Assembly (NCBI GenBank): GCA_902779845.1
Contig: CACZCZ010000020.1
Span: 1 to 64,000, forward strand
Reading direction: 5' to 3'
DNA length: 64,000 nt
From: an uncultured Bacteroidales bacterium
GTDB taxonomy: Bacteria > Bacteroidota > Bacteroidia > Bacteroidales > Bacteroidaceae
The translations under genes were made by a program, and so were the position numbers. Positions 11,708-38,146 of this stretch are shown piece after piece; position 1 is the first letter of the stretch, and each line of letters opens with the position of its first letter. Below the pieces are notes generated by a model. It was not told the origin of the DNA. It saw only the letters and a list, made by a program, of their open reading frames with translations, and did not search any database.

Positions 11708-12919
11708 TTACTTAATGTATTTCTTACCATTCTTGATATATAGGCCATGTCGGCCTTCAACCCACGGGCGTCCCATGAGGTCATAGCAGTTCCCCTCGCC
11801 CTTAAAACTCCCCTCGCCCTTTGGAGAGGGGCTGGGGGTGAGGTCGGGGGCAGGGGTGAGGCTCTTAATGCCAGTCAGGATTTCCTTGAAGTCCTCGCGT
11901 GTGAGAACATAGTCCTGAGCGAAGGCATCTTGCCACCAGGCAGCGTTGCAACTGGTGTGGTCCGTGCTTTTGAACGCCTCGCTGCCAGGCTTGTTGGTGC
12001 GTTCGTAGTCGTACCACGGCGCGAAATACAACCACTTGCAGCCGCCACGCCATTGAGCGCTGATCTTTGCCAGGCTTCCGCACTCGGTGAGGGCCACCAG
12101 TTTGTCGGGCGAGTTCTTTTTCAGCATGTTGAAGCATTTTGAGCGGATGTTGCTGGCACTACTTTCGTTATAAACATCGATACCGACGATATCGACATAT
12201 TCGTCGCCTGGATACCATTTGTAACCGTCGCTATAGGGCTTGTTCCACTCAGCCGCTGATGTCCACACCCAGATGAGGTTGTTGAGACCATGGTGATTGG
12301 TGAACCGGTCGTACATCACGCGCCACAACTCGTTGCAGGCATCGGCGTCGAGTCCCCACCAGAACCAGCGGCCACCCGCCTCGTGCAACGGGCGCCACAA
12401 CACGGGTATCTTGCGTTGTTTGAGTTTCTTGAGGGTAGAGGCCACTTTGTCGATGTCCTTCATCATCTGCTTGTATTCATCGGACTCCGGCTCGAAGATT
12501 TTCTTGACATCGAAGCTCGTCTGATTGTCACCTGTACCTGGGGTGCAGGTCCAGTCTGAGCCGTTGTTCGCAGGCATGTTCCAGTGCCACATACAACCTA
12601 CGATACCCCCCGCCTTGTGCCAGTTAACAACCTCTGTGACATTAGTGTAGTCAATCCAGTTGGCTGGCGAGAAGGGCAGGTGTATGAAATCAAAGAAGTT
12701 GATGGCAGGCCATTTGCCCGTGTGCTGATACACCCATTTGGCTTCGTTGATGTTCCAGTTGACATTGGCGGTGCAACCTGAGATGATCTTCTCGCCGTAG
12801 ATCTCGTGGAAGGTTTCCAACAGAGCCTCGGCCTCGGCCGACAATTGGCGCGTTTCCTGTGCCTGAGTGAATCCGACAGGCAGCATCAACAGCAGAATGA
12901 ACAGACTTCGTAATCTCAT
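11708..12919 (-). CDS. GH26 beta-mannanase with secretion tail
   Basis: A 403-residue secreted endo-mannanase or mannobiohydrolase. Signal peptide MRLRSLFILLLMLPVGFTQA; GH26 barrel with MWHWNMPANNG, acid/base Glu180 in RPLHEAGGRWFWWG and nucleophile Glu279 in LVALTECG. After the domain (about residue 355) the chain runs through a Pro/Gly-rich linker that is entirely the translation of palindromic element DNA ([12 protein letters not shown] at 11807-11842 plus a partial copy) and ends in a short tail, YDLMGRPWVEGRHGLYIKNG followed by KKYIK. Such tails are typical of Prevotella secreted proteins and resemble type IX sorting signals, which is inference. Confidence 0.92.
   Translation of the reverse strand: MRLRSLFILLLMLPVGFTQAQETRQLSAEAEALLETFHEIYGEKIISGCTANVNWNINEAKWVYQHTGKWPAINFFDFIHLPFSPANWIDYTNVTEVVNWHKAGGIVGCMWHWNMPANNGSDWTCTPGTGDNQTSFDVKKIFEPESDEYKQMMKDIDKVASTLKKLKQRKIPVLWRPLHEAGGRWFWWGLDADACNELWRVMYDRFTNHHGLNNLIWVWTSAAEWNKPYSDGYKWYPGDEYVDIVGIDVYNESSASNIRSKCFNMLKKNSPDKLVALTECGSLAKISAQWRGGCKWLYFAPWYDYERTNKPGSEAFKSTDHTSCNAAWWQDAFAQDYVLTREDFKEILTGIKSLTPAPDLTPSPSPKGEGSFKGEGNCYDLMGRPWVEGRHGLYIKNGKKYIK
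11807..11842 (-). repeat. 36-bp palindromic element, copy in GH26 linker
   Basis: Core beginning CTCACCCCCAGCCCCTCTCC and ending GCGAGGGGAGT on the minus strand, read as [13 protein letters not shown] shortened second copy adjoins at 11791-11806 (FKGEG). It joins the catalytic domain to the secretion tail. Confidence 0.85.
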
Positions 12920-24737: not shown

Positions 24738-27700
24738 TCAGTAATCACGTTGTACGTTCTCTATTTTTTCCTTTAGCTTCGCCATCTTCTCCTCTTCGAG
24801 CACGCGCTTGTACTCGATAGGTGTCACCTGGATGAAGTCCTCTATGTAGCGGTGCCAGTCGTCGAGCATGCGTCCGGCAAGGGCTGAACCCGTGTGGAGG
24901 TAATGCTGACGGATGAGTTCCAGCAGTTCCTTGCGCGAAATGCCGTCCTCGACCAGCGAGAGTTCCACCATATCCATGTTGCAGAAGTAGTCGAAGGTGT
25001 GGTCGGGGTCATAGACATACGCCAAGCCACCGCTCATGCCGGCGGCGAAGTTGCGACCCGTCTTACCGAGCACGACGACACGGCCGCCCGTCATATACTC
25101 GCAGCAGTGGTCGCCAGCGCCCTCGATGACAGCGATGGCGCCGCTGTTGCGCACGCCGAAGCGTTCGCCAACACGACCGTTGACATAAAGTTCACCGCTG
25201 GTGGCTCCGTAGAGACCTGTGTTGCCCGCGATGATGTTGTCCTCAGCACGGAAATCGGCACTGATGCGAGCTGGTGGCAGGATGCTGATGCGCCCGCCGG
25301 AGAGCCCCTTGCCGAAGTAGTCGTTGCACTCGCCCTCGAGCTTCAAGTTGAGGCCGCGCACGGCGAAGGCGCCGAACGACTGACCGGCCGAACCCTTGAA
25401 CTTGATGTTGATGGTGCCGTCGGGCAGACCGGCCTCGCCGTATTTCTTGGCGATGACACCTGAAAGCATCGTGCCCACAGCGCGGTCGGTGTTCTTAATA
25501 GCATAGTCGAGGTTCACTTCCTCCTGGGCGTCGATGGCCACTTGAGCCGCCTTGATGATTTCCTCGTCCTTCACGCCGCTGACCTTCGTGAACTCGCTGC
25601 GATCCCAGTAGAGGGGAACATCGGTGGCAGGCTGATGGAGAAGGCGGGAGAAATCGATGGCGTTCCATTTGGCGCAGCTATCGAACGAAGTGAGGCTCTC
25701 GCCCTTACGGGAGAGCGGGGAGAGGGTCTTCACTTCGATGAGGTCTGTGCGGCCGATGATATCCTTCAGCCTGCGCACGCCGATTTCTGCGAGGTACTCG
25801 CGAACCTGCTGGGCAAGGAAGGTGAAGTAGTTGACCACATACTCGGCACGCCCCATGAAACGGGCACGGAGACGCTCGTCCTGCGTGGCCACACCCACGG
25901 GGCAGGTGTTGGTGTTGCACTTTCGCATCATCACACAGCCGAGAACGATGAGCGGCAGCGTGCCGAACGAGAACTCGTCAGCACCGAGCATCGCCATGAT
26001 GATGACATCCTTGGAAGTTTTCAATTGGCCGTCGGTCTGCAGACGCACTTGAGCCCGAAGGCCGTTCTTGACCAGCGTCTGCTGCGTCTCGGCAAGGCCA
26101 ATCTCCGGCGAGATGCCGGCAAAGCGCATACTGCTTGCAGGCGAAGCCCCAGTACCGCCCTCTGCGCCGCTGATGACGATGAGGTCGGCTTTGGCTTTGG
26201 CGACACCTGCGGCGATGGTCCCTACCCCACTCTCGGCCACGAGCTTCACGCTGACGGCAGCCGTGGGATTGATGTTCTTCAAGTCGAAGATGAGCTGTGC
26301 CAGGTCTTCGATGCTGTAGATGTCGTGATGGGGCGGCGGAGAGATCAGGCTGATGCCCGGGATGGCATTACGTGTCTTAGCGATGATGTCGTTGACCTTG
26401 AAGCCAGGCAACTGTCCGCCCTCACCGGGCTTCGCGCCCTGTGCCACCTTGATCTGAATCTCCTCGGCATTCACAAGGTATTCGGCCGTCACGCCGAAGC
26501 GGCCCGATGCAATCTGCTTGGTCTTGCTGGAGAGCGATACCCCGTCCACCTCGGTGTGATAGCGGGCGTTGTCCTCGCCGCCCTCACCCGTGTTGCTTCG
26601 CGTGCCGAGTTTGTTCATCGCCAGGGCAAGGGCCTCATGGGCCTCGATGCTCAGAGCTCCGAAGGACATGGCACCTGTCACGAAGTGGCGGACGATGCTC
26701 TCCACCGGCTCCACCTCGTCGATGGCGAGAGGAGCAGATACCTTCTTAAAGGTGAGGAAATCGCGCAAGAAGACAGGCTTTTCTTTCTCATCGACAGCTA
26801 TGGCCCATTCCTTGAACTTCTCGTATGATCCTGTTCGCGTAGCTATCTGTAGTTTGGCAATCGTCTCAGGATTCCACGCGTGCAGGATGCCATCCTTGCG
26901 CCAGGAGAACTGACCGTTGTTCTTGAGGTAACCACTCCCCTCGCCCGTTGGAGAGGGGCTGGGGGTGAGGCTCTCCTCATGAAGCCTTATTGCATCCCGT
27001 GCAATCTCCTTCAGGCCGATGCCGCCGATGGTGCTTACCTCTGTGCCGAAGTACCGCCTCAGCAAATCCTCGCCAAGTCCGATGCTCTCGAAGATCTTGG
27101 CGCCGCGATACGAGCGGATGGTGGAGATGCCCATCTTGGACATAATCTTCTTCAGACCCTTATCAACGGCCTTGATGTAGTTGGCCTCAGCGGTGGCGTA
27201 CTCCTCCTGAATCTTGTGTTTCTTCACCAGATCATCCAACACAGCAAAAGTCATATAGGGGCAGATGGCACTGGCGCCATAGCCCAACAACAGGGCTGCG
27301 TGCATCACCTCGCGAATCTCGCCGCTCTCCACGATGAGCGCCGTCTGCACACGCTTGCCGACGCTGATGAGATAGTGGTGAACGGCTGAGACGGCAAGCA
27401 AACTTGGGATGTAGAAAGCCTCACCCCCGACCCCTCTCCCAGAGGCGAGGGGAGTAGATACCTCTGCATTGTCGATTTTATCTGTTAAGATAATATAGTT
27501 GTAGCCATCGTCCACAGCTTTCTCGGCATCCTTGCAGAGTTTGTCTAAAGCCATGCCCAACGCTTCGCCGGCCTGGGAGTAATCACTCCCCTCGCCCTTT
27601 GGAGAGGGGCTGGGGGTGAGGCTGGGGCTGGACTTGAGGCTAAATGTCATAGGCAACTTGATTGTCCTGAAGCCCTTATACCTGATATTACATAGTATAT

Positions 27701-29498
27701 CCAGTTGCGTGTTCGTCAGCACAGGCTGTGGCAGACGAACCATCTTACAGTTCGACGCATCGGGGGTGAGGATGTTTGTGCCCACGGCTCCGATGTATTC
27801 GGTCAGCGACATCACCAGCTCTTCGCGAATCGGGTCGATGGCGGGATTCGTCACCTGGGCGAACTGCTGACGGAAGTAGTTGAAGAGAATCTGCGGACGG
27901 TCGCTGATGACGGCCAGCGGCGTGTCGTTGCCCATGGCTGCCACGGGCTCCTGTCCTGCCGTGGCCATCGGAATGATGGTCTTGTCGATGTCCTCCTGAC
28001 CGAAGCCGAAAGCGATGAGCTTGCGTTCAAGGTCGCTGACACCATTCTCCACGTGGCGTCCGCTCTTGAGCTTCTCCAGCTGAATGCGGTTCGTCTGAAG
28101 CCACTCGCGATAGGGGTGTGCCTTGGCCAGCTGTTCCTTGATTTCGCCGTCGTAGTAGATTTTGCCCTCCTGCGTGTCAATGAGCAATATCTTGCCGGGC
28201 TGCAGACGTCCCTTGCTCACCACATCGCTGGGGTCGAAGTCCATCACGCCGACCTCCGAGGCCACGACAATCATTCCATTCTTGGTGATTGTGTAGCGGC
28301 TGGGACGCAAGCCGTTGCGGTCGAGCATCCCGCCTGCATAGCGACCATCTGAGAACAGCAAGGCTGCGGGGCCGTCCCACGGCTCCATCAGGATGGAATG
28401 GTACTCGTAGAACGCCTTCAAGTCCTCGCTGATGGGGTTCTTGTCGTTGAAGCTCTCGGGCACCAGAATGGCCATCGCCTGCGGCAACGAGAGTCCGCTC
28501 ATCATCAGGAACTCAAAGACATTGTCGAGCGAAGCAGAGTCGCTCATGCCCTCCTGCACAATCGGGCGCAGGTCCTTGATGTCACCCAAAGCCTCGCTGT
28601 TGAGCACGCTTTCCCTCGCTTTCATCCAACCGCGGTTTCCACGAATCGTGTTGATCTCGCCGTTATGCGCCAGCAAACGGAACGGCTGTGCCAGCGACCA
28701 CGTGGGGAATGTGTTGGTGGAGAAACGCGAGTGCACCAGCGCCAGTCCGCTCGTGAAATAGGGACTGGACAAGTCTGGGAAGTATCTTCGCAGCTGACCT
28801 GAAGTCAACATACCCTTATAGATGATGTTCTTCGAGGAAAGGGAACAGATGTAAGCCTCACCCCCGACCCCTCTCCCAGAGGCGAGGGGAGTAGATACCT
28901 TTGCCATTTCGGCTATACGGTTCTCAATCCTTTTCCTAACTTTATATAATGTACGGTCAAGCTCCGACACATCCCCCTGAATGATACCACTCCCCTCGCC
29001 CTTTGGAGAGGGGTCGGGGGTGAGGCTGGTTGTTATGAAGATTTGCTTAATCTCCGGCTCCACTTCCCTTGCCGCAGCACCCAGCACCTCCGGGCATGTC
29101 GGCACCGTGCGCACGTGCATCAGCTGCAAGCCTTCGCGCTCAATCTCCTCGATCATCACGCTCAGGATCTGCTCCTGTGCCTTTTCATCCTTCGGCAGGA
29201 ACACCAAGCCTGTTCCGTAGGTGCCCTTCTCCGGCACAGGAATACCCTGCAACAGAATAAACTCATGCGGAATCTGTACCATAATACCTGCACCGTCGCC
29301 CGTCTTGTCGCGCGTCTCGGCTCCGCGGTGCTCCATGTTCTCCAGCACCTTCAGCGCGTTATCCACCAACTCGTGGCTTTTGCCACCGTGGATGTTCACC
29401 ACCATCCCCACGCCACAGGCATCGTGCTCATAGGCTTCTTGATAAAGGGACTTTGGGGAGGTTGTTGAATGATTTTGACTAATTGCGCTCTTTTCCAT
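24738..29498 (-). CDS. gltB: Glutamate synthase, large subunit, with element insertions
   Basis: Makes two glutamates from glutamine and 2-oxoglutarate. Short propeptide, then the catalytic Cys28 in EHDACGVGMVVN (Ntn amidotransferase), the central and FMN barrel domains (GGTGASPASSMRFAG), the [3Fe-4S] motif CVMMRKCNTNTCPVGVAT and the C-terminal beta-helix (GGRVVVLGKTGRNFAAGMSG). At 1586 residues it is longer than usual because five 36-bp elements are read in frame ([28 protein letters not shown] and variants) plus one decayed copy at 25690-25727. All lie in likely loops between conserved blocks. ATG 29498 was chosen because it gives a short propeptide and avoids dapL. Probably active despite the insertions (inference). 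Confidence 0.95.
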   Translation of the reverse strand: MEKSAISQNHSTTSPKSLYQEAYEHDACGVGMVVNIHGGKSHELVDNALKVLENMEHRGAETRDKTGDGAGIMVQIPHEFILLQGIPVPEKGTYGTGLVFLPKDEKAQEQILSVMIEEIEREGLQLMHVRTVPTCPEVLGAAAREVEPEIKQIFITTSLTPDPSPKGEGSGIIQGDVSELDRTLYKVRKRIENRIAEMAKVSTPLASGRGVGGEAYICSLSSKNIIYKGMLTSGQLRRYFPDLSSPYFTSGLALVHSRFSTNTFPTWSLAQPFRLLAHNGEINTIRGNRGWMKARESVLNSEALGDIKDLRPIVQEGMSDSASLDNVFEFLMMSGLSLPQAMAILVPESFNDKNPISEDLKAFYEYHSILMEPWDGPAALLFSDGRYAGGMLDRNGLRPSRYTITKNGMIVVASEVGVMDFDPSDVVSKGRLQPGKILLIDTQEGKIYYDGEIKEQLAKAHPYREWLQTNRIQLEKLKSGRHVENGVSDLERKLIAFGFGQEDIDKTIIPMATAGQEPVAAMGNDTPLAVISDRPQILFNYFRQQFAQVTNPAIDPIREELVMSLTEYIGAVGTNILTPDASNCKMVRLPQPVLTNTQLDILCNIRYKGFRTIKLPMTFSLKSSPSLTPSPSPKGEGSDYSQAGEALGMALDKLCKDAEKAVDDGYNYIILTDKIDNAEVSTPLASGRGVGGEAFYIPSLLAVSAVHHYLISVGKRVQTALIVESGEIREVMHAALLLGYGASAICPYMTFAVLDDLVKKHKIQEEYATAEANYIKAVDKGLKKIMSKMGISTIRSYRGAKIFESIGLGEDLLRRYFGTEVSTIGGIGLKEIARDAIRLHEESLTPSPSPTGEGSGYLKNNGQFSWRKDGILHAWNPETIAKLQIATRTGSYEKFKEWAIAVDEKEKPVFLRDFLTFKKVSAPLAIDEVEPVESIVRHFVTGAMSFGALSIEAHEALALAMNKLGTRSNTGEGGEDNARYHTEVDGVSLSSKTKQIASGRFGVTAEYLVNAEEIQIKVAQGAKPGEGGQLPGFKVNDIIAKTRNAIPGISLISPPPHHDIYSIEDLAQLIFDLKNINPTAAVSVKLVAESGVGTIAAGVAKAKADLIVISGAEGGTGASPASSMRFAGISPEIGLAETQQTLVKNGLRAQVRLQTDGQLKTSKDVIIMAMLGADEFSFGTLPLIVLGCVMMRKCNTNTCPVGVATQDERLRARFMGRAEYVVNYFTFLAQQVREYLAEIGVRRLKDIIGRTDLIEVKTLSPLSRKGESLTSFDSCAKWNAIDFSRLLHQPATDVPLYWDRSEFTKVSGVKDEEIIKAAQVAIDAQEEVNLDYAIKNTDRAVGTMLSGVIAKKYGEAGLPDGTINIKFKGSAGQSFGAFAVRGLNLKLEGECNDYFGKGLSGGRISILPPARISADFRAEDNIIAGNTGLYGATSGELYVNGRVGERFGVRNSGAIAVIEGAGDHCCEYMTGGRVVVLGKTGRNFAAGMSGGLAYVYDPDHTFDYFCNMDMVELSLVEDGISRKELLELIRQHYLHTGSALAGRMLDDWHRYIEDFIQVTPIEYKRVLEEEKMAKLKEKIENVQRDY
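25690..25727 (-). repeat. Decayed palindromic element in gltB
   Basis: Read as TLSPLSRKGESLT on the coding strand; similar order of Pro, Lys-Gly-Glu-Ser to the intact copies but many changes. Confidence 0.5.
26934..26969 (-). repeat. 36-bp palindromic element, single copy in gltB
   Basis: Forward orientation relative to the gene, read as LTPSPSPTGEGS. Followed by GGTTACC, the flank of the first-half subtype. No inverted partner was found nearby. Confidence 0.85.
27420..27455 (+). repeat. 36-bp palindromic element, second half of pair B in gltB
   Basis: Reverse orientation relative to the gene, read as STPLASGRGVGGEA and preceded by the flank GGTATCTACT. Partner at 27585-27620. Confidence 0.88.
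27585..27620 (-). repeat. 36-bp palindromic element, first half of pair B in gltB
   Basis: Read as [12 protein letters not shown] in gltB, flank GGGGAGTGATTAC. Separated from its inverted partner by 129 bp of ordinary gltB sequence. Confidence 0.88.
28857..28892 (+). repeat. 36-bp palindromic element, second half of pair A in gltB
   Basis: Read as STPLASGRGVGGEA on the coding strand, preceded by AAGGTATCTACT. Identical in core to the copy at 27420. Confidence 0.88.
28989..29024 (-). repeat. 36-bp palindromic element, first half of pair A in gltB
   Basis: Read as [12 protein letters not shown], flank GGGGAGTGGTATC. The pair encloses 96 bp that encode normal GltB residues (SELDRTLYKVRKRIENRI). 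Confidence 0.88.
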
Positions 29499-29544
29499 TG
29501 TATATAATGTTTTATGATTTCTTGAAAGGTAATCACTCAATTCC

Positions 29545-30720
29545 TCAAAGGGAGAGTGAGGGAAGGGTCTTCCTGATTCTTTCCAGCGCTTCTGCTGTGT
29601 TCTCATGTGTGCCAAAAGCCGTCAAACGCACATAGCCTTCGCCGCTGGGACCGAAACCAGCACCGGGCGTGCACACCACATGGGCGGAATGCAGCATCCA
29701 TTCGAAGAACTCCCAAGAACTCCCCTCAACTCCTACCCAAATATACGGTGCATCTACGCCACCATAAACCGTGAAGCCCATGGCAGTGAGTGACTCGCGC
29801 ATCAGGCGTGCATTCTCCATGTAGTAGGCGATGGTAGCCTTAACCTGTTCCTTACCCGCGGGCGTGTAGATGGCCTCGGCAGCACGCTGACTGAGGTAGC
29901 TTGTGCCGTTGAACTTCGTGCACTGGCGTCGGTTCCAAAGGGCGTTCAAAAGCCCAAGGGCCTTCGGCACCACGGTATAGCCGCAGCGTATGCCCGTGAA
30001 ACCGGCCGTCTTGGAATAGCTGTGAAACTCCACCGCACACTGCTTGGCGCCTGGTATCTCATAGATGCTGTGGGGCACATCCTCACTCTGGATGTAGGCC
30101 TCGTAGGCAGCATCGTAGAAAATAAGGACATTCTCGCGAATGGCATAATCTACCCACACCTTCAGCTGTTCTCTGTTGAGCGTCGTGCCCGTCGGATTGT
30201 TGGGATAGCAGAGATAGATGACGTCAACGTGCTCGCTTGGCAGCTCCGGCACAAAGCCGTTCTCTGCCGTGCAGGGCAGCTTTACGATACGGCGACCTGC
30301 CATCACATTAGAATCCACATACACGGGATAGACGGGATCGGTGACCGCTACCACGCAGTCCTCTGCCAGCAGCTCTTGAAAATTACCTGTGTCACTCTTG
30401 GCTCCGTCGCTGACGAACACCTCGTCTGCTTCTATGTTGATGCCACGGGCGCGGAAATCGTGGGTCACAATGGCTTCACGCAAGAAGTCGTAGCCGCGTT
30501 CAGGACCATAACCACGGAACGTCGTTGACGTAGCCATCTCGTCGGCCGCCTTGTGCAAAGCCTCGATAACAGCGGGAGCCAGCGGCTGCGTCACATCGCC
30601 TATGCCAAGTGAGATGACATCTGCATCGGGTGACTGCATCTTGAACGCCTTCACCTTCTTGGCAATGTCTGCAAACAGATAATTGCTCGCCAGATTCAAA
30701 TAATTCTCGTTTATTTTCAT
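29545..30720 (-). CDS. dapL: LL-diaminopimelate aminotransferase
   Basis: PLP enzyme converting tetrahydrodipicolinate and glutamate directly to LL-diaminopimelate, for lysine and peptidoglycan. The 391-residue protein matches class I aminotransferases of the DapL group: [38 protein letters not shown], and the PLP lysine in [22 protein letters not shown] 30720 gives [11 protein letters not shown], the expected start; the upstream reading adds five residues. It follows dapF by 46 bp and uses glutamate as amino donor, which links it to the gltBD genes next door. Confidence 0.95.
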
Positions 30721-30766
30721 TGTCTTTATGATCACTTTTCTCTTTTCTCTTTTCTCTTTTCACTTT

Positions 30767-31690
30767 TCATTTCCCACGCTCCCCTAGGGGGAGCGGGGCC
30801 ATCACCTCCCCTTCATACACGAACTCCGCAGGTCCTGTCATGTACACGTGCCCGTCGGCTTCACGCCATTCAATCTCCAGCTCGCCGCCATCCATAATGA
30901 TGCGGCTCGCACGTCCGGCACGTCCCGTCTTGCAGGCCGCCACCGCCGTGGCACAAGCACCTGTTCCGCAAGCCTGGGTGATACCACTGCCGCGTTCCCA
31001 AACGCGCACTCGAATGCCGTCAGGACGCATTTCGGCAAATTCGATGTTGCAGCGTTCAGGAAACGCGGGATGGTACTCAAGAATTGCTCCTTCGCGGGCA
31101 ACGTCAATCGCGTCCACATCGTCCACGAAGATGACATAGTGTGGGTTGCCCATGGAAACAAATGTTCCAGCCTCACCCCCAACCCCTCTCCGAATGGCGA
31201 GGGGAGTAGATAGCTTAGCCCCAATGGAGGGGTTGTATTGTTTGGGATTCTCGAAAATGGGCTCACCCATATCTACCGTCACGCTTTCCACGATGCCATC
31301 AGTAATATGCAAGTAGAGAGTCTTAATGCCGGAGAGCGTCAGCAACCTAATCTGTTTTTCATGGTGACCACTCCCCTCGCCCTTTGGAGAGGGGTCGGGG
31401 GTGAGTCCCTTCTCATAGACATATTTCCCGATGCAGCGGCTGGCATTGCCGCACATCATGGCCTCCGAGCCATCGGCATTGAAGATTCGCATTGAGAAAT
31501 CAGCCTCAGAAATTGGACTTCTTCCGATGAGCACGAGGCCGTCAGACCCTATCCCCTTGTGGCGATCGCTCCACACACGGGCTGCCGCAACCGGATCCCC
31601 TATATTATATAATAAGGTGTCAACGTAGATGTAATCGTTGCCAGCTCCATGCATTTTAGTGAAGTGGATAAGACCTGTCGTTTTGCTCAT
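30767..31690 (-). CDS. dapF: Diaminopimelate epimerase with element insertions
   Basis: Converts LL- to meso-diaminopimelate using two cysteines. Both are visible: [18 protein letters not shown] in the first half and [13 protein letters not shown] in the second. The 307-residue length is larger than the family's usual 260-280 because two 36-bp elements are translated in frame: [12 protein letters not shown] after EKG and [14 protein letters not shown] before [12 protein letters not shown]. The C-terminal residues PLPLGERGK also come from a palindrome (30778-30796). The insertions avoid the active site, so activity is probably kept. A near-consensus -7 box (TACTTTG, 31730-31736) lies upstream, divergent from glnK. 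Confidence 0.95.
30778..30796. repeat. Perfect palindrome at the 3' end of dapF
   Basis: CGCTCCCC-TAG-GGGGAGCG. It rewrites the last codons of dapF (PLPLGERGK). Polypyrimidine TTTTCTC units follow at 30735-30770. Confidence 0.75.
31172..31207 (+). repeat. 36-bp palindromic element, second half of dapF pair
   Basis: Read as [14 protein letters not shown] in dapF, preceded on the coding strand by AAGCTATCTACT. Confidence 0.88.
31370..31405 (-). repeat. 36-bp palindromic element, first half of dapF pair
   Basis: Read as [12 protein letters not shown] in dapF, flank GGGGAGTGGTCACC. It is 162 bp away from its inverted partner at 31172-31207. Confidence 0.88.
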
Positions 31691-31875
31691 ATAGCAATCA
31701 AATAATTACCATTTTGTTTTATTTTGATGCAAAGTAAGAGCATTTTGCTCACACAACAACCAATTTCTATACAAAATCACCGCAAATAATGTATTTTAAT
31801 TGACAAATATCAATAAACTGCCATTCGAATTGTCGAAAGTTGCAAATTATTAGCTGCTTTGATTTCAAAATGTCA

Positions 31876-31883
31876 TACCTTTG
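31876..31883 (+). promoter_or_regulatory. -7 box upstream of glnK-amtB
   Basis: TACCTTTG 60 bp before the glnK ATG. No good -33 box was seen at the usual distance. The 253-bp gap to dapF is AT-rich and holds no gene. Confidence 0.65.
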
Positions 31884-31943
31884 CAGCGAAAACATTGCAA
31901 TGTGTAAGCAAATCAGGACGCTCAGTAATTAAATGTTTAAGGT

Positions 31944-32291
31944 ATGAAAAAGATTGAAGCGATTATTCGGAAAACGAAATTCGAAGATGTCAAGGAAGCA
32001 TTGCTCTCATCGGACATCGACTGGTTCGAGTATCACGACGTGCACGGCATCGGACAGAGCCGACAGGAACGTATTTACCGTGGCGTCCAGTATTCAACAG
32101 ATGTCATCGAGCGCGTAGCAGTGACCATCGTGTGTCGCGAGCAGTTTGTTGATCCTACCGTGAAGGTAATCATCGACACAGCTCACACGGGTGAGGTCGG
32201 CGACGGCCGCATCTTCGTAAGTGAGATGATAGACACCTGGAGCATCAGAACAGGCGAGCACGGCGACACGGTTTTGAGAGATAAGAAATAA
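31944..32291 (+). CDS. glnK: Nitrogen regulatory protein P-II (GlnK/GlnB type)
   Basis: A 115-residue P-II trimer subunit that senses 2-oxoglutarate and energy state and blocks the ammonium channel when nitrogen is ample. Seen: MKKIEAIIRKTKFEDVKEAL at the start, the T-loop with ERIYRGVQYSTD (Tyr at the family's modification position), VKVIIDTAHTGEVGDGRIFV (B-loop) and SIRTGEHGDTV at the C-terminus. It is followed after 35 bp by amtB, the classical glnK-amtB pair, which favours GlnK over GlnB. A -7 box precedes it. Confidence 0.95.
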   Translation: MKKIEAIIRKTKFEDVKEALLSSDIDWFEYHDVHGIGQSRQERIYRGVQYSTDVIERVAVTIVCREQFVDPTVKVIIDTAHTGEVGDGRIFVSEMIDTWSIRTGEHGDTVLRDKK

Positions 32292-32326
32292 AAGGATAAC
32301 AACGCAACACATTATTATATATAATT

Positions 32327-33580
32327 ATGAACGACATTGCACTTTCTTTAGATACTGTATGGATGCTATTGGCAGCTATGTTGGTGTTTTTCATGCAGCC
32401 CGGCTTTGCGCTGTGCGAGGCAGGCTTCACACGCGGAAAGAACACCGTCAACATACTCTTTAAGAACTTCGTTGATTTCATGTTCGGTTCGCTGCTGTTC
32501 TGGTTTGTGGGCTTCGGCTTCATGTTCGGATCAGACGGTGCCGGCTTCATCGGCGCACCCAACTGGGGCGACCTGAGCTTCTACAAAGGCGAGCTGCCCG
32601 TAGAGGGTTTCCTCATTTTCGAGACGGTCTTCTGCGCCACCTCAGCCACCATCGTCAGCGGCGCCATGGCAGAGCGCACAAAGTTCTCGATGTACGTGAT
32701 CTACAGCGCGATGATCTCGCTGATCATCTACCCCATCGAGGGACACTGGACATGGGGCGGCGGTTGGCTCTGCAACGATGCTGCCGACAGCTTTATGATG
32801 ACGACTTTCGGGGACGTATTTCACGACTTCGCCGGCTCTGCCATCGTGCATAGCGTGGGCGGCGTGCTGGCTCTCATCGGTGCCATCGCCCTCGGTGCCC
32901 GTCGTGGCAAGTACGGCAAGGACGGCAAGAGCCGCGCTATCCCAGGTCACTCGCTGACGCTGGCAGCCCTCGGCGTCTTCATCCTGTGGATGGGCTGGTT
33001 CGGCTTCAACCCCGGCTCACAGCTTGCCGCCTCCGGTGAGGTCAACCGCACCGCCATCAGCCACGTATTCCTGACCACGAACCTCGCCGCAGCAGCAGGT
33101 GGTGTTGCAACGATGTTCCTCACATGGCTGAAGTACAAGAAACCATCGTTCTCCTTGACGCTCAACGGCGTACTCGCAGGCCTCGTGGGTATCACAGCGG
33201 GGTGCGACCTTGTGTCACCCGTGGGCGCAGTCATCATCGGTCTTGTCTGCGGCACTGTGTTGGTCTTCAGCATTGAGTTCATCGATCACAAACTTCACAT
33301 CGATGATCCTGTCGGCGCCTCCAGCGTTCATGGTGTCTGCGGTATTCTCGGAACACTGCTGACTGGCTTGCTCTCTACGAGCAACGGAGCCTTTTACGGT
33401 CATGGTTGGGGCTTCTTCGGAGCTGAAGCTTTCGGTATCCTCGTCATTGACCTCTGGGCTGCTGCCTGTGGCCTCATCCTCTTCTACGGTATCAAGAAGC
33501 TGCACGGTCTTCGCGTTCCCGCCCGCATCGAGGACGAAGGACTTGACGTGTACGAACACGGAGAGCTGTGCTATAACTAA
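32327..33580 (+). CDS. amtB: Ammonium transporter
   Basis: Inner-membrane trimeric ammonium channel, 417 residues with eleven predicted helices. The pore histidine pair is visible in FAGSAIVHSVGGVLAL and DPVGASSVHGVCGILGT, and the Amt signature HDFAGS precedes the first. The N-terminal segment LSLDTVWMLLAAMLVFFMQP fits the first helix. It is paired with glnK upstream. The gap to the next gene carries a GC-rich palindromic element right after the stop (33584-33619), which may form an attenuating hairpin. Confidence 0.96.
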   Translation: MNDIALSLDTVWMLLAAMLVFFMQPGFALCEAGFTRGKNTVNILFKNFVDFMFGSLLFWFVGFGFMFGSDGAGFIGAPNWGDLSFYKGELPVEGFLIFETVFCATSATIVSGAMAERTKFSMYVIYSAMISLIIYPIEGHWTWGGGWLCNDAADSFMMTTFGDVFHDFAGSAIVHSVGGVLALIGAIALGARRGKYGKDGKSRAIPGHSLTLAALGVFILWMGWFGFNPGSQLAASGEVNRTAISHVFLTTNLAAAAGGVATMFLTWLKYKKPSFSLTLNGVLAGLVGITAGCDLVSPVGAVIIGLVCGTVLVFSIEFIDHKLHIDDPVGASSVHGVCGILGTLLTGLLSTSNGAFYGHGWGFFGAEAFGILVIDLWAAACGLILFYGIKKLHGLRVPARIEDEGLDVYEHGELCYN

Positions 33581-33583
33581 AGA

Positions 33584-33619
33584 CTCACCCCCTACCCTCC
33601 TTGTGAGGGAGGGGGTGGT
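33584..33619. repeat. Palindromic element between amtB and the barrel gene
   Basis: CTCACCCCCTACCCTCC, a short loop, then GGGAGGGGGTGG: an imperfect hairpin of the same general make-up as the in-gene elements, three bases after the amtB stop. No T-run, so a role as attenuator or RNA stabiliser is only possible. Confidence 0.6.
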
Positions 33620-33660
33620 TACCTAACAAAACTTTAAACCATAAATAAAACATTATCAAT

Positions 33661-34398
33661 ATGAACACAAAACACTTTATATATATTTTCTCCTTGTTGT
33701 CGATTCTGTCTATGCCGCTATCGGCACAGGATATCACTCCCCTCCCTGAAAAGGAGGTGTCAAAGAAGAGTCCGGTCTCTGCCATCCTCGCTATAGACCT
33801 CGTCAACCAATATATCTGGCGTGGTCAGGATCTTGGCAACGTCAGTGTGCAACCCACTCTCGGCTTGGAATGGAAGGGCCTGAGCCTCAGCGCATGGGGC
33901 AACGTTGGCATCAGCAACTGGGCGGACACGAAAGAGCTTGACCTCACGCTCAGCTACACCTACAAGGGTTTCACGGTGGGCATCACAGACTACTGGACAG
34001 ACGGCAGCGACTACTTCCTGTACAAAAACGGTGAGACCAACCATATCTGGGAGGCTGGCATCGGCTACGACTTCGGTTTCCTCGCAATCTCGTGGTACAC
34101 GAATTTCGCCGGCGCCGACGGTGTGAATGGCGACGGGAATCGCGCCTATAGCAGCTACTTCGAGATCTCTGCCCCGTTCCGTCTGGGCGGCCTCGAATGG
34201 GAAGCCGCCGTGGGGATGGTTCCATGGAAGACAACCACCTATGACACCAACGGCTTTGCTGTCACCAACGTCAGCCTGAAAGCCACCAAGGACTTCGTCA
34301 TCAAGGAGAAATATCATCTTCCAGTCTTTGCAGGACTGACGGCAAACCCGAATTCCAAGAAATTCTATTTCCTCTGCGGCATATCATTCTCATTATAA
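33661..34398 (+). CDS. Outer-membrane beta-barrel protein linked to ammonium genes
   Basis: A 245-residue protein with signal peptide MNTKHFIYIFSLLSILSMPLSA and about eight to ten amphipathic strands of alternating pattern (DLVNQYIWRGQDLGNVSVQP, LSLSAWGNVGISNW, LDLTLSYTYKGFTVGITDYW), ending in FYFLCGISFSL with a terminal aromatic/hydrophobic residue as in barrels. Such proteins are often encoded next to glnK-amtB in Bacteroidales, so a pore for nitrogen compounds is plausible but unproven. It precedes pyrG by 5 bp. Confidence 0.75.
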   Translation: MNTKHFIYIFSLLSILSMPLSAQDITPLPEKEVSKKSPVSAILAIDLVNQYIWRGQDLGNVSVQPTLGLEWKGLSLSAWGNVGISNWADTKELDLTLSYTYKGFTVGITDYWTDGSDYFLYKNGETNHIWEAGIGYDFGFLAISWYTNFAGADGVNGDGNRAYSSYFEISAPFRLGGLEWEAAVGMVPWKTTTYDTNGFAVTNVSLKATKDFVIKEKYHLPVFAGLTANPNSKKFYFLCGISFSL

Positions 34399-34403
34399 CT
34401 CAT

Positions 34404-36074
34404 ATGAATACCAAGTACATCTTCGTCACGGGCGGCGTCGTTTCCTCGTTGGGAAAAGGCATCATCTCGGCCAGCATCGGAAAGCTGCTGCTGGCACGCG
34501 GCTACAAAGTCACGATCCAGAAGTTTGATCCTTACATCAACATAGATCCGGGGACGCTGAATCCCTACGAGCACGGCGAATGCTACGTGACTGAAGATGG
34601 CATGGAGACCGACTTGGACCTCGGTCACTATGAGCGCTTCACGGGAATCCGAACCACACGTGACAACAGCATCACCACGGGCCGGATCTACAAGACAGTC
34701 ATCGACCGCGAGCGGCATGGCGACTACCTGGGCAAGACGATTCAGGTGGTGCCGCATATCACGGACGAGATCAAGAGGAGAATGCTGAGAGAGGAGGCCA
34801 CTTTTGATTTTGTCATCACCGAGGTCGGCGGCACGATCGGCGACATAGAGAGTGCACCATTCATGGAAGCTATACGTCAGCTAAGATGGGAACTGGGCAG
34901 AAATGCCGTGTGTGTGCACCTAACCTACGTGCCTTATCTGAAGGCTGCTGACGAGCTGAAGACAAAACCCACCCAGCACTCGGTGAAGGAGCTGCAGAGC
35001 ATGGGTATCCAACCCGACATTCTTGTTCTCCGTACAGAACGCCACCTCGACGACACGATGCGCTTGAAGGTGGCATCGTTCTGCAATGTTGATTTGGAGT
35101 GCGTGGTGCAGAGCGAAGATATGCCCAGCATCTATGAGGTGCCGGTGAACATGCAACGACAGGGCCTCGACGCCGCCATCCTGCGCAAAATAGGCATCCC
35201 CGTGGGCGAAACGCCGGCCATGAAACCTTGGCACGATTTTCTCGAGAAGCAGCGCAATGCCTCCAGAGAAGTGCACATCGGTCTCGTTGGCAAGTACGAC
35301 CTGCAAGATGCCTACAAAAGTATTCGCGAGAGCTTGAATCTGGCTGGAATCTACAACGATGTCAAAACAAAAATCCATTTTGTCAACAGTCAGGATTTGA
35401 CGACTGATAACGTCGCCGCACAGCTGAACGGCATGGCCGGCATTATCATCTGTCCGGGCTTCGGCCAGCGCGGCATCGAGGGAAAGATTATCGCCGCCGA
35501 ATACACACGCAGCCACGATATCCCCACCTTCGGCATCTGTCTGGGGATGCAGATGATGGTGATTGAGTTCGCACGAAATGTGCTGGGATATAAGGATGCA
35601 ACGAGTAGAGAAAGCCTCACCCCCGACCCCTCTCCAAAGGGCGAGGGGAGTGATTACCATTGCGTGATAGACCTAATGGAGGAGCAGAAGAATATCACGC
35701 AGATGGGTGGAACCATGCGATTGGGCGCATACGATTGTGAGCTGAAAGAAGGCAGCAAGACTTTTGAAGCATATTCGCAGGCAAAACTATCTACTCCCCT
35801 CGCCCTTCGGAGAGGGGTCGGGGGTGAGGCTGTCATTAGTGAGCGCCACCGCCATCGCTATGAGTTCAACAATCAATACCGCGACGAGTACGAAGCGGCA
35901 GGTATGAAATGCGTGGGTATCAACCCTGACGCGGATCTCGTGGAGATTGTGGAGATACCCGAGAAGCGCTGGTATATCGGCACACAGTTCCATCCCGAAT
36001 ACTCCTCTACGGTGCTGCATCCGCATCCCCTGTTCATGTCATTCATAAAAGCCTGCATCGATGGTAAATCGTAA
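34404..36074 (+). CDS. pyrG: CTP synthase with element insertions
   Basis: Aminates UTP to CTP with glutamine and ATP. N-terminal synthetase domain (YIFVTGGVVSSLGKGIISAS, FDPYINIDPGTLNPYEHGE) to about residue 270, then the glutaminase domain with Cys in FGICLGMQMMVIEFARN and the His/Glu region FHPEYSS. At 556 residues it exceeds the usual 535-545 because two 36-bp elements are read in frame, [12 protein letters not shown] before VIDLMEEQKNITQMGGTMRL and [14 protein letters not shown] before ISERHRHRYEFNN. Both sit at loop positions of the glutaminase domain. The stop codon is formed within an AT-rich repeat (GGTAAATCGTAA). It starts 5 bp after the barrel gene. Confidence 0.96.
   Translation: MNTKYIFVTGGVVSSLGKGIISASIGKLLLARGYKVTIQKFDPYINIDPGTLNPYEHGECYVTEDGMETDLDLGHYERFTGIRTTRDNSITTGRIYKTVIDRERHGDYLGKTIQVVPHITDEIKRRMLREEATFDFVITEVGGTIGDIESAPFMEAIRQLRWELGRNAVCVHLTYVPYLKAADELKTKPTQHSVKELQSMGIQPDILVLRTERHLDDTMRLKVASFCNVDLECVVQSEDMPSIYEVPVNMQRQGLDAAILRKIGIPVGETPAMKPWHDFLEKQRNASREVHIGLVGKYDLQDAYKSIRESLNLAGIYNDVKTKIHFVNSQDLTTDNVAAQLNGMAGIIICPGFGQRGIEGKIIAAEYTRSHDIPTFGICLGMQMMVIEFARNVLGYKDATSRESLTPDPSPKGEGSDYHCVIDLMEEQKNITQMGGTMRLGAYDCELKEGSKTFEAYSQAKLSTPLALRRGVGGEAVISERHRHRYEFNNQYRDEYEAAGMKCVGINPDADLVEIVEIPEKRWYIGTQFHPEYSSTVLHPHPLFMSFIKACIDGKS
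35616..35651 (+). repeat. 36-bp palindromic element, first half of pyrG pair
   Basis: Read as [12 protein letters not shown], followed by GATTACC. Same order as in gltB and dapF although pyrG lies on the other strand. Confidence 0.88.
35793..35828 (-). repeat. 36-bp palindromic element, second half of pyrG pair
   Basis: Read as [14 protein letters not shown], preceded by AAACTATCTACT. 141 bp of normal pyrG sequence lie between the halves. Confidence 0.88.
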
Positions 36075-36117
36075 AATCGTCAAATCGTCAAATTGTCAAA
36101 TTAAAAGGATTGTCAAA
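36061..36117. repeat. AT-rich repeat spanning the pyrG stop and purF leader
   Basis: Several units related to AAATCGTAAAATCGTCAAAT. It provides the TAA of pyrG and an AAAAGGAT that could act as ribosome site for purF. The same string begins the symporter gene at 3769. Confidence 0.7.
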
Positions 36118-36121
36118 TGAG

Positions 36122-38146
36122 ATGGTGGAACAGTTGAAGCATGAATGTGGTGTGGCGCTGGTGCGTCTGCTGAAGCCGCAGAGCTACTACGAACAGAAGT
36201 ACGGCACGCAGTCGTACGGCCTGAACAAGCTCTATCTGATGATGGAGAAGCAGCACAACCGCGGTCAGGAGGGTGCGGGCATTGCTTGTGTGAACATGCA
36301 TGCGCCTGTCGGCACGGAGTATATGTTCCGTGAGAGGGCGCAGGGGAAAGATGCTATCACGGAGATCTTCGAAAGGTTAAGACCCACCCCCGACCTGACC
36401 CGTCCTCAGCAGAGGAGTTCTGCTTCGGTCGCTCAGGGCGGCTTGACATTCAGTCAACCCGTTGATTCCTTCGCTACCCGTGAGGGAGGGGAGAGCTGGC
36501 GCGCAGCAAGCGAACGTAGTGAGGTCCCCTCCATTACGGGAGGGGTGCCCGAAGGGCGAGGTGGGTCTGGTTGGGAGGGGGCCTCTCTTTTCATGGGTCA
36601 TCTCCGCTATTCCACAACGGGCAAGAACGGCCTACAGTATGTTCACCCCTTCCTGCGCCGCAACAACTGGCGTGCGAAGAACCTCTGTCTGTGCGGCAAC
36701 TTCAACATGACGAACATCGAAGAAATCTTCGAGAAGATTGTGCAGCAGGGCCAGTCGCCGCGCGTTTACAGCGACTCGTACATCACGTTGGAGTGGATGG
36801 GTCACCGTCTGGACCGCGAGGTGGAACGCTGCTTCGTGGAAGCGAAGGAGCTGGGGTTGGAAGGAACGGATATCACACGCTACATTGAGGATCACGTGCA
36901 GATGGCGAATGTGCTGCGAACGACGATGGCCGACTACGACGGCGGCTACGTGATGTGCGGCATGACGGGCAGCGGCGAGATGTTTGCCATGCGAGATCCC
37001 TGGGGAATACGTCCCGCATTCTGGTACAGGGACGACGAGGTGGTGGCCGTGGCCAGCGAACGCGCTGTGCTGCAGACGACCTTCGATCTTCAAGTAGATG
37101 ACGTGCAGGAGCTCTTCGCCGGTCAGGCGCTGATTGTCCACAAGGACGGCACGAGCCGTCTGGAGCAGATTATCGGGAAGAAGGCTAACAGCGCTTGTAG
37201 CTTTGAACGAATCTATTTCAGTCGTGGCAACGATTACGACATCTATCACGAACGCAAACAACTGGGCCAGCAACTTACGGAACCCATTCTGAAAGCCATC
37301 GACGGCGACACCGAACACACCGTATTCTCCTTCATCCCCAACACCGCCGAGGTAGCCTTCTACGGCATGATGGAAGGTCTGCGCAGCAAAGGCCTCAGCG
37401 TTCGCAGCGAGAAGGTAGCATGGAAGGACATCAAGCTGCGCACCTTCATCACCGAGGCCGGTTCGCGCAACGACCTCGCCTCGCACGTCTATGACATCAC
37501 ATACGGTTCCCTGCGACCTTACGTGGACAACCTCGTCATCATCGACGACAGCATTGTCCGCGGCACGACCCTGAAGGAGAGCATCTTCAAGATCCTCGAC
37601 CGCCTGCATCCCAAGAAGATCGTCATGGTCAGCAGCTCGCCGCAGGTGCGTTATCCTGATTTCTACGGCATTGACATGGCTTGCATTGAAGAGCTCTGCG
37701 CCTTTCGTGCGGCCATGGCGTTGATTAAGGAGCGAGGAATGGAGGAACTGATTGAGGAGGTGTATAGGTTGTGCAAAAACACAGTGGCCCTCCATTCGGC
37801 CCCCGAGGGGGCTACTAATGTTATGCCCACTGTTAACAAAGGTATAGAAGTCCCCTCGGGGACAGTAGAGGGGGCCTCTACCCCTGTTCGTTTATTATAC
37901 AAGCCTTTCACCATAGAAGACATCAACCGCAAGATGGCGGAGATGTTACGTCCGCAAGGCATGAAGGCACCGGTTGAGCTGGTATTCCAGAGCATCGAAG
38001 GACTCCACACAGCTATTCCACATCACAGCGGCGATTGGTATTTCACCGGCCACTACCCGACTTTAGGTGGCATTCGATGCGTTAACAATGCATTTGTCAA
38101 CTATTATGAGCGAATTTATTGCTTTTTATCAAGAAAAAGCGATTAG
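36122..38146 (+). CDS. purF: Amidophosphoribosyltransferase with insertions
   Basis: First enzyme of purine synthesis, making phosphoribosylamine from PRPP and glutamine. The Bacteroidales-type protein starts MVEQLKHECGVALVRLLKP; the Cys after a short propeptide is the glutaminase nucleophile. The PRPP motif is VIIDDSIVRGTTLK, and CSFERIYFSRG is also seen. At 674 residues it carries two foreign-looking stretches: residues about 87-150, coded by a composite palindromic insertion (36381-36567), and about 557-592, coded by elements at 37785-37895. Conserved blocks on both sides (EKQHNRGQEGAG, MGHLRYSTTGKNGLQYVHPF) are intact. ATG 36122 was preferred to a TTG four codons upstream. Confidence 0.93.
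   Translation: MVEQLKHECGVALVRLLKPQSYYEQKYGTQSYGLNKLYLMMEKQHNRGQEGAGIACVNMHAPVGTEYMFRERAQGKDAITEIFERLRPTPDLTRPQQRSSASVAQGGLTFSQPVDSFATREGGESWRAASERSEVPSITGGVPEGRGGSGWEGASLFMGHLRYSTTGKNGLQYVHPFLRRNNWRAKNLCLCGNFNMTNIEEIFEKIVQQGQSPRVYSDSYITLEWMGHRLDREVERCFVEAKELGLEGTDITRYIEDHVQMANVLRTTMADYDGGYVMCGMTGSGEMFAMRDPWGIRPAFWYRDDEVVAVASERAVLQTTFDLQVDDVQELFAGQALIVHKDGTSRLEQIIGKKANSACSFERIYFSRGNDYDIYHERKQLGQQLTEPILKAIDGDTEHTVFSFIPNTAEVAFYGMMEGLRSKGLSVRSEKVAWKDIKLRTFITEAGSRNDLASHVYDITYGSLRPYVDNLVIIDDSIVRGTTLKESIFKILDRLHPKKIVMVSSSPQVRYPDFYGIDMACIEELCAFRAAMALIKERGMEELIEEVYRLCKNTVALHSAPEGATNVMPTVNKGIEVPSGTVEGASTPVRLLYKPFTIEDINRKMAEMLRPQGMKAPVELVFQSIEGLHTAIPHHSGDWYFTGHYPTLGGIRCVNNAFVNYYERIYCFLSRKSD
36381..36567. 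repeat. Composite palindromic insertion inside purF
   Basis: About 187 bp bounded by GACCCACC and its complement GGTGGGTC. Inside, CCCGTGAGGGAGGGGA (around 36476) faces TCCCCTCCATTACGGG (around 36524), 14 of 16 pairing. It is read in frame through its whole length. Confidence 0.75.
37785..37895. repeat. Second GC-rich element pair inside purF
   Basis: GGCCCTCCATTCGGCCCCCG near the left end and GTAGAGGGGGCCTC near the right end, with inner CCCCGAGGGG and CCCCTCGGGG hairpins. Translated as a Pro/Gly-rich linker (HSAPEGATN, EVPSGTVEGAST). Confidence 0.65.

Follow-up and report, generated by a model that had tools for sequence, protein, structure and literature searches.

How do two copies of a short palindrome come to face each other inside a conserved enzyme gene, with normal protein-coding DNA between them? 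This question is raised by a 64,000-nucleotide stretch (the window) of contig CACZCZ010000020.1 from an uncultured Bacteroidales bacterium (GCA_902779845.1), whose genome is a draft of 2.92 Mb in 47 contigs and 86% complete. A 38-bp imperfect palindrome, here called E and reading ACTCCCCTCGCCNNNNGGAGAGGGGTCGGGGGTGAGGC, was found 11 times in the window by a fuzzy scan allowing up to 9 substitutions. Eight of the 11 copies form four facing pairs, two in gltB and one each in dapF and pyrG, and the remaining three lie at 11807, 26934 and 48499. All eight paired copies are in frame, and GltB, DapF and PyrG stay open across both copies. An initial annotation, made from the sequence alone, had described these pairs; the fuzzy scan confirmed them together with their gaps (Table 1), and translation gave the claimed peptides in the claimed order in 4 of 4 pairs. 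The same annotation had proposed that the inverted pairs carry two flank subtypes, and this was borne out by the facing counts and flank comparisons that follow.

In each copy of E a hairpin core, CCCCTCGCC-N4-GGAGAGGGG, lies between a G-rich tail and an inner flank, and the tails of a pair point outward. The same genome carries a second family, F (CCCCTCC-N4-CGGGAGGGG, tail GGGGGTGGG), which behaves like E, and a third kind, the H-type, reading about CCCTCCCTACAAGGGAGGG. The own-genome set consisted of the window plus stretches around pattern matches, a biased sample of 326 kb out of 2.92 Mb. It shows a dispersed high-copy repeat with 146 E/F-type copies, including weak ones with up to 4 substitutions, and many of them lie inside long open frames (read as plain open reading frames), conserved enzymes among them. 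Neighbours less than 250 bp apart were tail-outward in 33 cases, on the same strand in 5 and tail-inward in none. Two of the five same-strand cases have symmetric cores and become tail-outward on other placements, which raises the first count to 35 and leaves three (two tandem F steps on contig 26 and one on contig 33). At 250-600 bp the facing rule is gone (1 tail-outward, 5 same-strand, 4 tail-inward). A reversed-pattern control gave 0 matches versus 46 forward and 49 reverse matches for the pattern itself. In 61 genus genomes (35 with a match), counting by eye among the matches listed, with the own genome excluded from the count, gave at least 31 tail-outward, 1 same-strand and 0 tail-inward neighbours below 250 bp. 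A further sample of 47 loci was chosen on one copy with one flank type only, and a partner was sought within 450 bp at up to 2 mismatches; a facing downstream partner was present in 23 of the 47, and the other three combinations of orientation and side gave 1, 0 and 1. These loci are not independent, as four are gltB and several come from one assembly. Pairs that are not spanned by a long open frame obey the rule as well. Chance neighbours are ruled out by the tail-outward excess below 250 bp, and an over-representation of close inverted pairs, known from doublets of repetitive extragenic palindromic (REP) sequences and from REPINs, is present here.

The two members of a pair do not carry the same inner flank. 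Within an E pair the flanks are about GGTAAYYACT and TATNTACT, and within an F pair GCGCCAGCC and CCGCAGG. Over 34 pairs, flank similarity was 1.50 within pairs versus 2.40 after re-pairing within family groups, and 99.1% of 20,000 permutations lay at or above the observed value. Among the 23 partners of the 47-locus sample, one had the flank type used in the search, 16 had the other type and 6 had neither. The idea that the inner flanks act as matching stems is unsupported, because re-paired flanks resemble each other more than those of a real pair do. The cores are more similar within pairs than under random pairing across all families (p 5e-5, 34 pairs), and mixed-family pairs make up 5 of the 34. 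In many copies the hairpin is followed on its inner side by GTAG (GGGGAGTAG), and others read GGGGAGTG. The initial annotation had also held that the order of the two subtypes follows the coding strand. This is so in 4 of 4 window pairs and fails as a general law: among 18 pairs elsewhere that lie within an open frame of 200 codons or more, 13 follow the window order (including four gltB pairs and two copies of one other gene) versus 5 reversed, with gaps of 23-74 bp in the latter, and one relative has a reversed compact unit in its pyrG.

Table 1. Palindrome copies, enclosed segments and host genes in the window; first and second refer to coding direction
Feature	Position	Strand	Remark
gltB open reading frame	24738..29615	-	1625 aa as listed, start codon provisional; hosts sites A, B and C
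gltB site A, first copy	28989..29026	+	fuzzy scan, translation
gltB site A, second copy	28855..28892	-	reads VSTPLASGRGVGGEA
gltB site A, native segment between copies	28893..28988	-	96 bp gap
gltB site B, first copy	27585..27622	+	fuzzy scan
gltB site B, second copy	27418..27455	-	fuzzy scan
gltB site B, native segment between copies	27456..27584	-	129 bp gap
gltB site C, first copy	26934..26971	+	no full partner; stub resembling the palindrome's inner end at the expected second position
dapF open reading frame	30767..31690	-	
dapF, first copy	31370..31407	+	fuzzy scan
dapF, second copy	31170..31207	-	fuzzy scan
dapF, native segment between copies	31208..31369	-	162 bp gap
pyrG open reading frame	34404..36074	+	
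pyrG, first copy	35614..35651	-	fuzzy scan
pyrG, second copy	35793..35830	+	fuzzy scan
pyrG, native segment between copies	35652..35792	+	141 bp gap

The DNA between the copies belongs to the host genes. Alignments of GltB, DapF and PyrG to PDB homologues run through the enclosed stretches, and the segment between the copies is conserved in relatives that lack the palindromes; the claim that the pairs enclose normal conserved protein therefore stands. In an iron-type alcohol dehydrogenase-like protein from outside the own genome (locus L251), the bracketed residues likewise align to native ones. In HemW the PDB alignment was interrupted at the palindromes and left the 41-bp interior uncovered, so the interior is only likely to be native, judging from its sequence, and HemW was not counted as a case. 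Alignments to relatives place the copies at variable positions of the host proteins. A conserved spacer belonging to one mobile block is ruled out for the window pairs, since their interior is native gene; the spacer is not part of a mobile unit in any of the four. Related spacers do occur elsewhere: when seven pairs of relatives were compared with each other, 3 of the 21 scores exceeded 0.55 (0.63-0.72, flanks included), several F-pair interiors are related to each other, and three compact units of relatives have a partly common interior, as REPINs would. We therefore see two forms, compact units, some with an interior of their own, and wide pairs around native DNA. As a separate observation, the interiors of four F-type or mixed pairs of the own genome (C26:51299, C26:50087, C24:17618 and C11:14978) share short ATTACG/CGAAATAA-type repeats and a ATGAATCTACGC-like or ATGCATCTACGC-like stretch, with a possible start codon leading into the palindrome.

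We examined the gltB loops in relatives. The same half-element turns up mainly in assemblies from the rumen or elsewhere in the gut that are labelled Prevotella, Prevotellaceae, Bacteroidaceae or Bacteroidales, and a few named Prevotella/Segatella species also carry it. The gltB set of 46 comprised 40 fetched regions, five further stretches and the window (84 of 139 genomes gave a match), and occupancy was judged by insert length (12 and 9 extra bases). With kinship between species left uncorrected in these Fisher tests and in the permutations below, the site A loops were both filled in 17 genes, first only in 2, second only in 1 and empty in 24 (n=44, site A missing from 2 of the 46 genes; p 4e-9), and the site B loops were both filled in 19, first only in 3, second only in 0 and empty in 24 (n=46; p 4e-10). 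At each site one of the 'both' genes (G140 at A, G010 at B) has fillers that are not palindromic and score 6.0, like empty loops. Several palindrome families contribute the fillers of these loops; the family labels assigned automatically to the gltB tree are crude, with some H-type copies mislabelled P, and enter no count. Complementarity between first and second copy was on average 22.6 within species versus 17.5 between species at site A (permutation p 8e-4), and 18.5 versus 11.1 at site B (0 of 5000 permutations). The families of the two copies mostly match within a species, with exceptions. In nearest-tip contrasts on a gene tree built without the loops, both loops changed together in 14 cases (one of which rests on G140), in opposite directions in 0 and one alone in 4, with three species pairs used at both sites. 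Cases are fewer at dapF and pyrG: both dapF positions are occupied by another paired family in one relative, two relatives have such a palindrome on one side only, and at pyrG one relative has a compact unit at the first position. That related species mostly have both copies or neither suggests a mobile element with two ends landing at two spots.

The explanation that we prefer, tentatively, is a two-ended REP-type element whose pair is placed around host DNA in one event ('bracketing insertion') and later exchanged between species. The mobile palindromes would be REP-type, about 45 bp long with their flank, and would have distinct left and right ends, as in REP doublets and REPINs. One event would set both ends on one DNA molecule, outward-facing and about 40-190 bp apart, and the host DNA between them would stay in place. 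A two-fold symmetric complex might hold a left-end and a right-end hairpin and join each within one looped target stretch; the enzyme would be a dimeric hairpin-binding protein working on single-stranded DNA, for which an HUH/RAYT-like protein is a candidate only. Within genes, selection would then keep in-frame hits at two tolerant, variable positions, and the copies and the enclosed segment might afterwards often be exchanged jointly between species by allelic recombination. Outward tails, unlike flanks and short range are consistent with such a two-fold symmetric complex. The narrower proposition is a mode of mobility for which we found no description: left and right ends would be set at two sites at once and enclose as much as about 190 bp of unmoved host DNA. 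It seems to us possible and rather doubtful. If it is true, conserved genes gain two coordinated in-frame insertions together, and the bracketed segment then becomes exchangeable between species.

Transposons of the IS200/IS605 type have ends formed by two unlike hairpins on one strand, with non-symmetric guide sequences; none carrying these palindromes was found. The own genome has a Y1-type HUH frame of 447 codons (L031:1221-2562) with the motif MPDHVHLVIQ and internal short tandem repeats. Long HUH frames like this one recur in several genus genomes. Y1_Tnp matches were obtained in 23 of the 61 genus genomes, 18 of them above the cut-off, although these genomes are incomplete. Matches were present in 9 of 14 palindrome-rich genomes versus 14 of 47 others (p 0.028), with the cut for palindrome-rich (6 or more matches) chosen afterwards. 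A RAYT gene carrying these palindromes was not found at the 29 HUH loci scanned, in genomes that are incomplete, and 11 of the 29 yielded no HUH open reading frame under the filter used.

Several results weigh against an element with two jointly placed ends. At those 29 loci, a scan allowing 2 substitutions gave no E, F or H core, and a tail-like match was present at three. It is common for a copy to be unpaired (72 of 146 have no neighbour below 250 bp, some of them with diverged partners), and open frames often hold a single copy. The cores of pair members, compared within family groups, are not significantly more alike than re-paired ones (p 0.13), and in G148, G067 and G095 the two site B loops hold different families. 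First-only and second-only species exist at gltB site C, where the own genome itself has a second-position stub. Comparison of filled with empty alleles, which was between species only and on diverged alleles, revealed neither a target duplication nor a clean junction. Finally, occupancy changes fewer times on a tree of the local segment than on one of a distant part of the gene, 4 versus 12 times at site B and 9 versus 13 at site A. Filled alleles thus cluster on local trees, and much of the co-occurrence is therefore shared ancestry or allele transfer and not repeated insertion. Transfer alone would not produce the facing rule or the two flank types.

How the enclosed segment itself behaves bears on the view that the mobile item is a cassette of pair plus gene segment, with palindrome-bounded variants replacing the homologous segment in other species. 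Comparing filled with empty alleles at site B, we obtained an amino-acid fixation index (Fst) of 0.433 for the stretch enclosed by the loops, higher than in any of the 91 background windows, and of 0.033 and 0.007 for the stretches immediately to the left and right. These values and the grouping of filled alleles by local trees speak for a cassette. Synonymous differentiation inside site B is small (0.075, reached by 3 of 91 background windows), and adaptation of the protein to its loops could therefore explain the protein difference. Site A differentiation is raised outside as well: for amino acids it is 0.146 inside (reached by 12 of 175 background windows) and 0.191 just left, and for synonymous sites 0.170 inside (reached by 0 of 175) and 0.197 just right. 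The pyrG interior is 0.70-0.82 identical to nine relatives, versus 0.76-0.86 for the left and 0.72-0.86 for the right flank, so there is no sign of a foreign segment, and one interior class is common to different palindrome families. We consider a cassette improbable. From the local trees and the filled/empty differentiation, segment and palindromes travel or persist together, with the palindromes as possible physical borders of transfer. Independent insertions into a few tolerant loops, with pairing produced by coincidence, linkage and allele transfer, would agree with the variable protein positions of the copies, with the visible allele transfer and with the occupation of the same positions by unrelated repeats. 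Chance gives no fixed facing direction, no matched families, no unlike flanks and no pairs outside long frames, and this origin is very hard to believe. Of the unrelated repeats, G016 has a GTTGACAAGTTGACAAG type at gltB site C (L176) and an LTSKQ...STKNSSTK peptide repeat at about residue 131 of pyrG (L107); several kinds of repeat thus collect at these insertion-tolerant positions.

Selection might instead keep pairs after single insertions, if a lone palindrome is harmful in single-stranded DNA or mRNA and a nearby complementary partner relieves the harm, so that single insertions survive when paired. Half-filled alleles are indeed rare at sites A and B, complementarity is mostly retained even where the same two loops hold other families in other species, and the paired mRNA folds very strongly into one long hairpin (z -10.8 and -12.7). 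This fold arises because the copies are complementary and is therefore not evidence of function. The many single copies in open frames and the half-filled species at gltB site C speak against such selection, as does the extension of the facing rule to pairs outside long open frames, and the different inner flanks of the two copies are left unexplained; we think it unlikely. The initial annotation had offered a joint insertion process or an mRNA constraint. Facing, co-occupancy and flank types uphold a joint process or constraint, and a constraint acting in the mRNA was not shown. Recopying by template switching, in which one inserted copy is copied again in inverted orientation to a nearby place during replication, has quasipalindrome-type events as its model. 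It would readily yield inverted orientation, short distance, a native interior and usually the same family, but it predicts both facing directions, seen 33 versus 0 in the own genome and at least 31 versus 0 in relatives among the matches listed, and identical flanks, which in fact differ within pairs. Mixed-family pairs also count against it, and there is little probability that it explains the pairs.

Palindromes of related design are familiar from other bacteria. To our knowledge, REP doublets are common bacterial repeats whose mode of insertion is unsettled. The bacterial interspersed mosaic elements (BIMEs) of E. coli consist of Y and Z palindromic units; by description they resemble our pairs in the inverted alternation of two subtypes and differ in being extragenic, with spacers that are part of the mosaic element. 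Rickettsia palindromic elements (RPEs) are palindromic repeats inserted in frame in functional proteins, and by description the present copies are like them in being in-frame palindromes within presumably functional open reading frames. RPEs are named in PMC3733652, and as far as its accessible text goes no paired rule with host DNA between the copies was found for them. According to the accessible part of PMC3116915 (Bertels and Rainey, 2011), REPINs or REP doublets are many-copy short palindromes, mostly inverted doublets capable of forming one hairpin, with singlets as remnants; they are extragenic, have a spacer between the REPs and left and right ends, and the RAYT gene is flanked by REPs. 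To the extent of that text, our palindromes share the high copy number, the inverted doublets and the left and right ends. They differ in that many of their pairs are located within open frames, and what separates the two copies of a window pair is host gene. The accessible part of PMC3733652 describes GTAG/CGTC-tagged REPs with inverted dimers, heterodimers, hybrid dimers and in-frame intragenic copies, and with dimer spacers mostly of 20-100 bp that are, as a rule of thumb, variable in tail-tail dimers. Inverted dimers, heterodimers and in-frame intragenic copies recur here, and the tag appears not to be constant. The initial statement that the paired rule matches no described system was thus too strong, given that both inverted REP doublets and in-frame intragenic REPs are on record in these portions of the two papers (PMC3116915, PMC3733652). 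In the same portions of the REP/REPIN literature (PMC3116915, PMC3733652), a dimer bracketing conserved coding sequence, with halves gained or lost jointly at two loops, was not found.

By topology we file the palindrome pairs as a variant of REP doublets, and we do not call the window pairs REPINs because their spacer is not part of the unit. What is new, as far as our literature searches and the accessible texts go, is that conserved coding DNA is bracketed and that the two copies are present or absent together. Should bracketing be how pairs form, there is a route that the standard picture, insertion of one block together with its spacer, does not include, and essential enzymes are predicted to gain coordinated protein insertions spaced by a few dozen residues. 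The gltB loops offer a natural experiment, with 46 orthologues, several families at the same positions, and empty, half-filled and filled alleles.

Some minor observations concern single copies and other pairs. Rfam gave 0 matches up to E-value 1 for window positions 25000-37000, and a known RNA family is ruled out for that interval. The E copy at 11807 is nested within a second copy: a palindrome centred inside another E occupies window positions 11787-11865, and the arrangement recurs in the own genome at C4:3409 and C6:11829. Similar nesting is seen at gltB site C in three relatives (G016, G145 and G154). Judged by eye from translations, own-genome pairs at C9:9025, C26:50087, C2:136903 and C21:6099 seem to straddle a gene start, with one copy upstream and its partner in frame within the N-terminus. 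A purF-like open reading frame at window positions 36110-38146, whose product was named amidophosphoribosyltransferase-like by eye, has a further multi-part in-frame insertion with an F-like core near 36526, in its N-terminal part.

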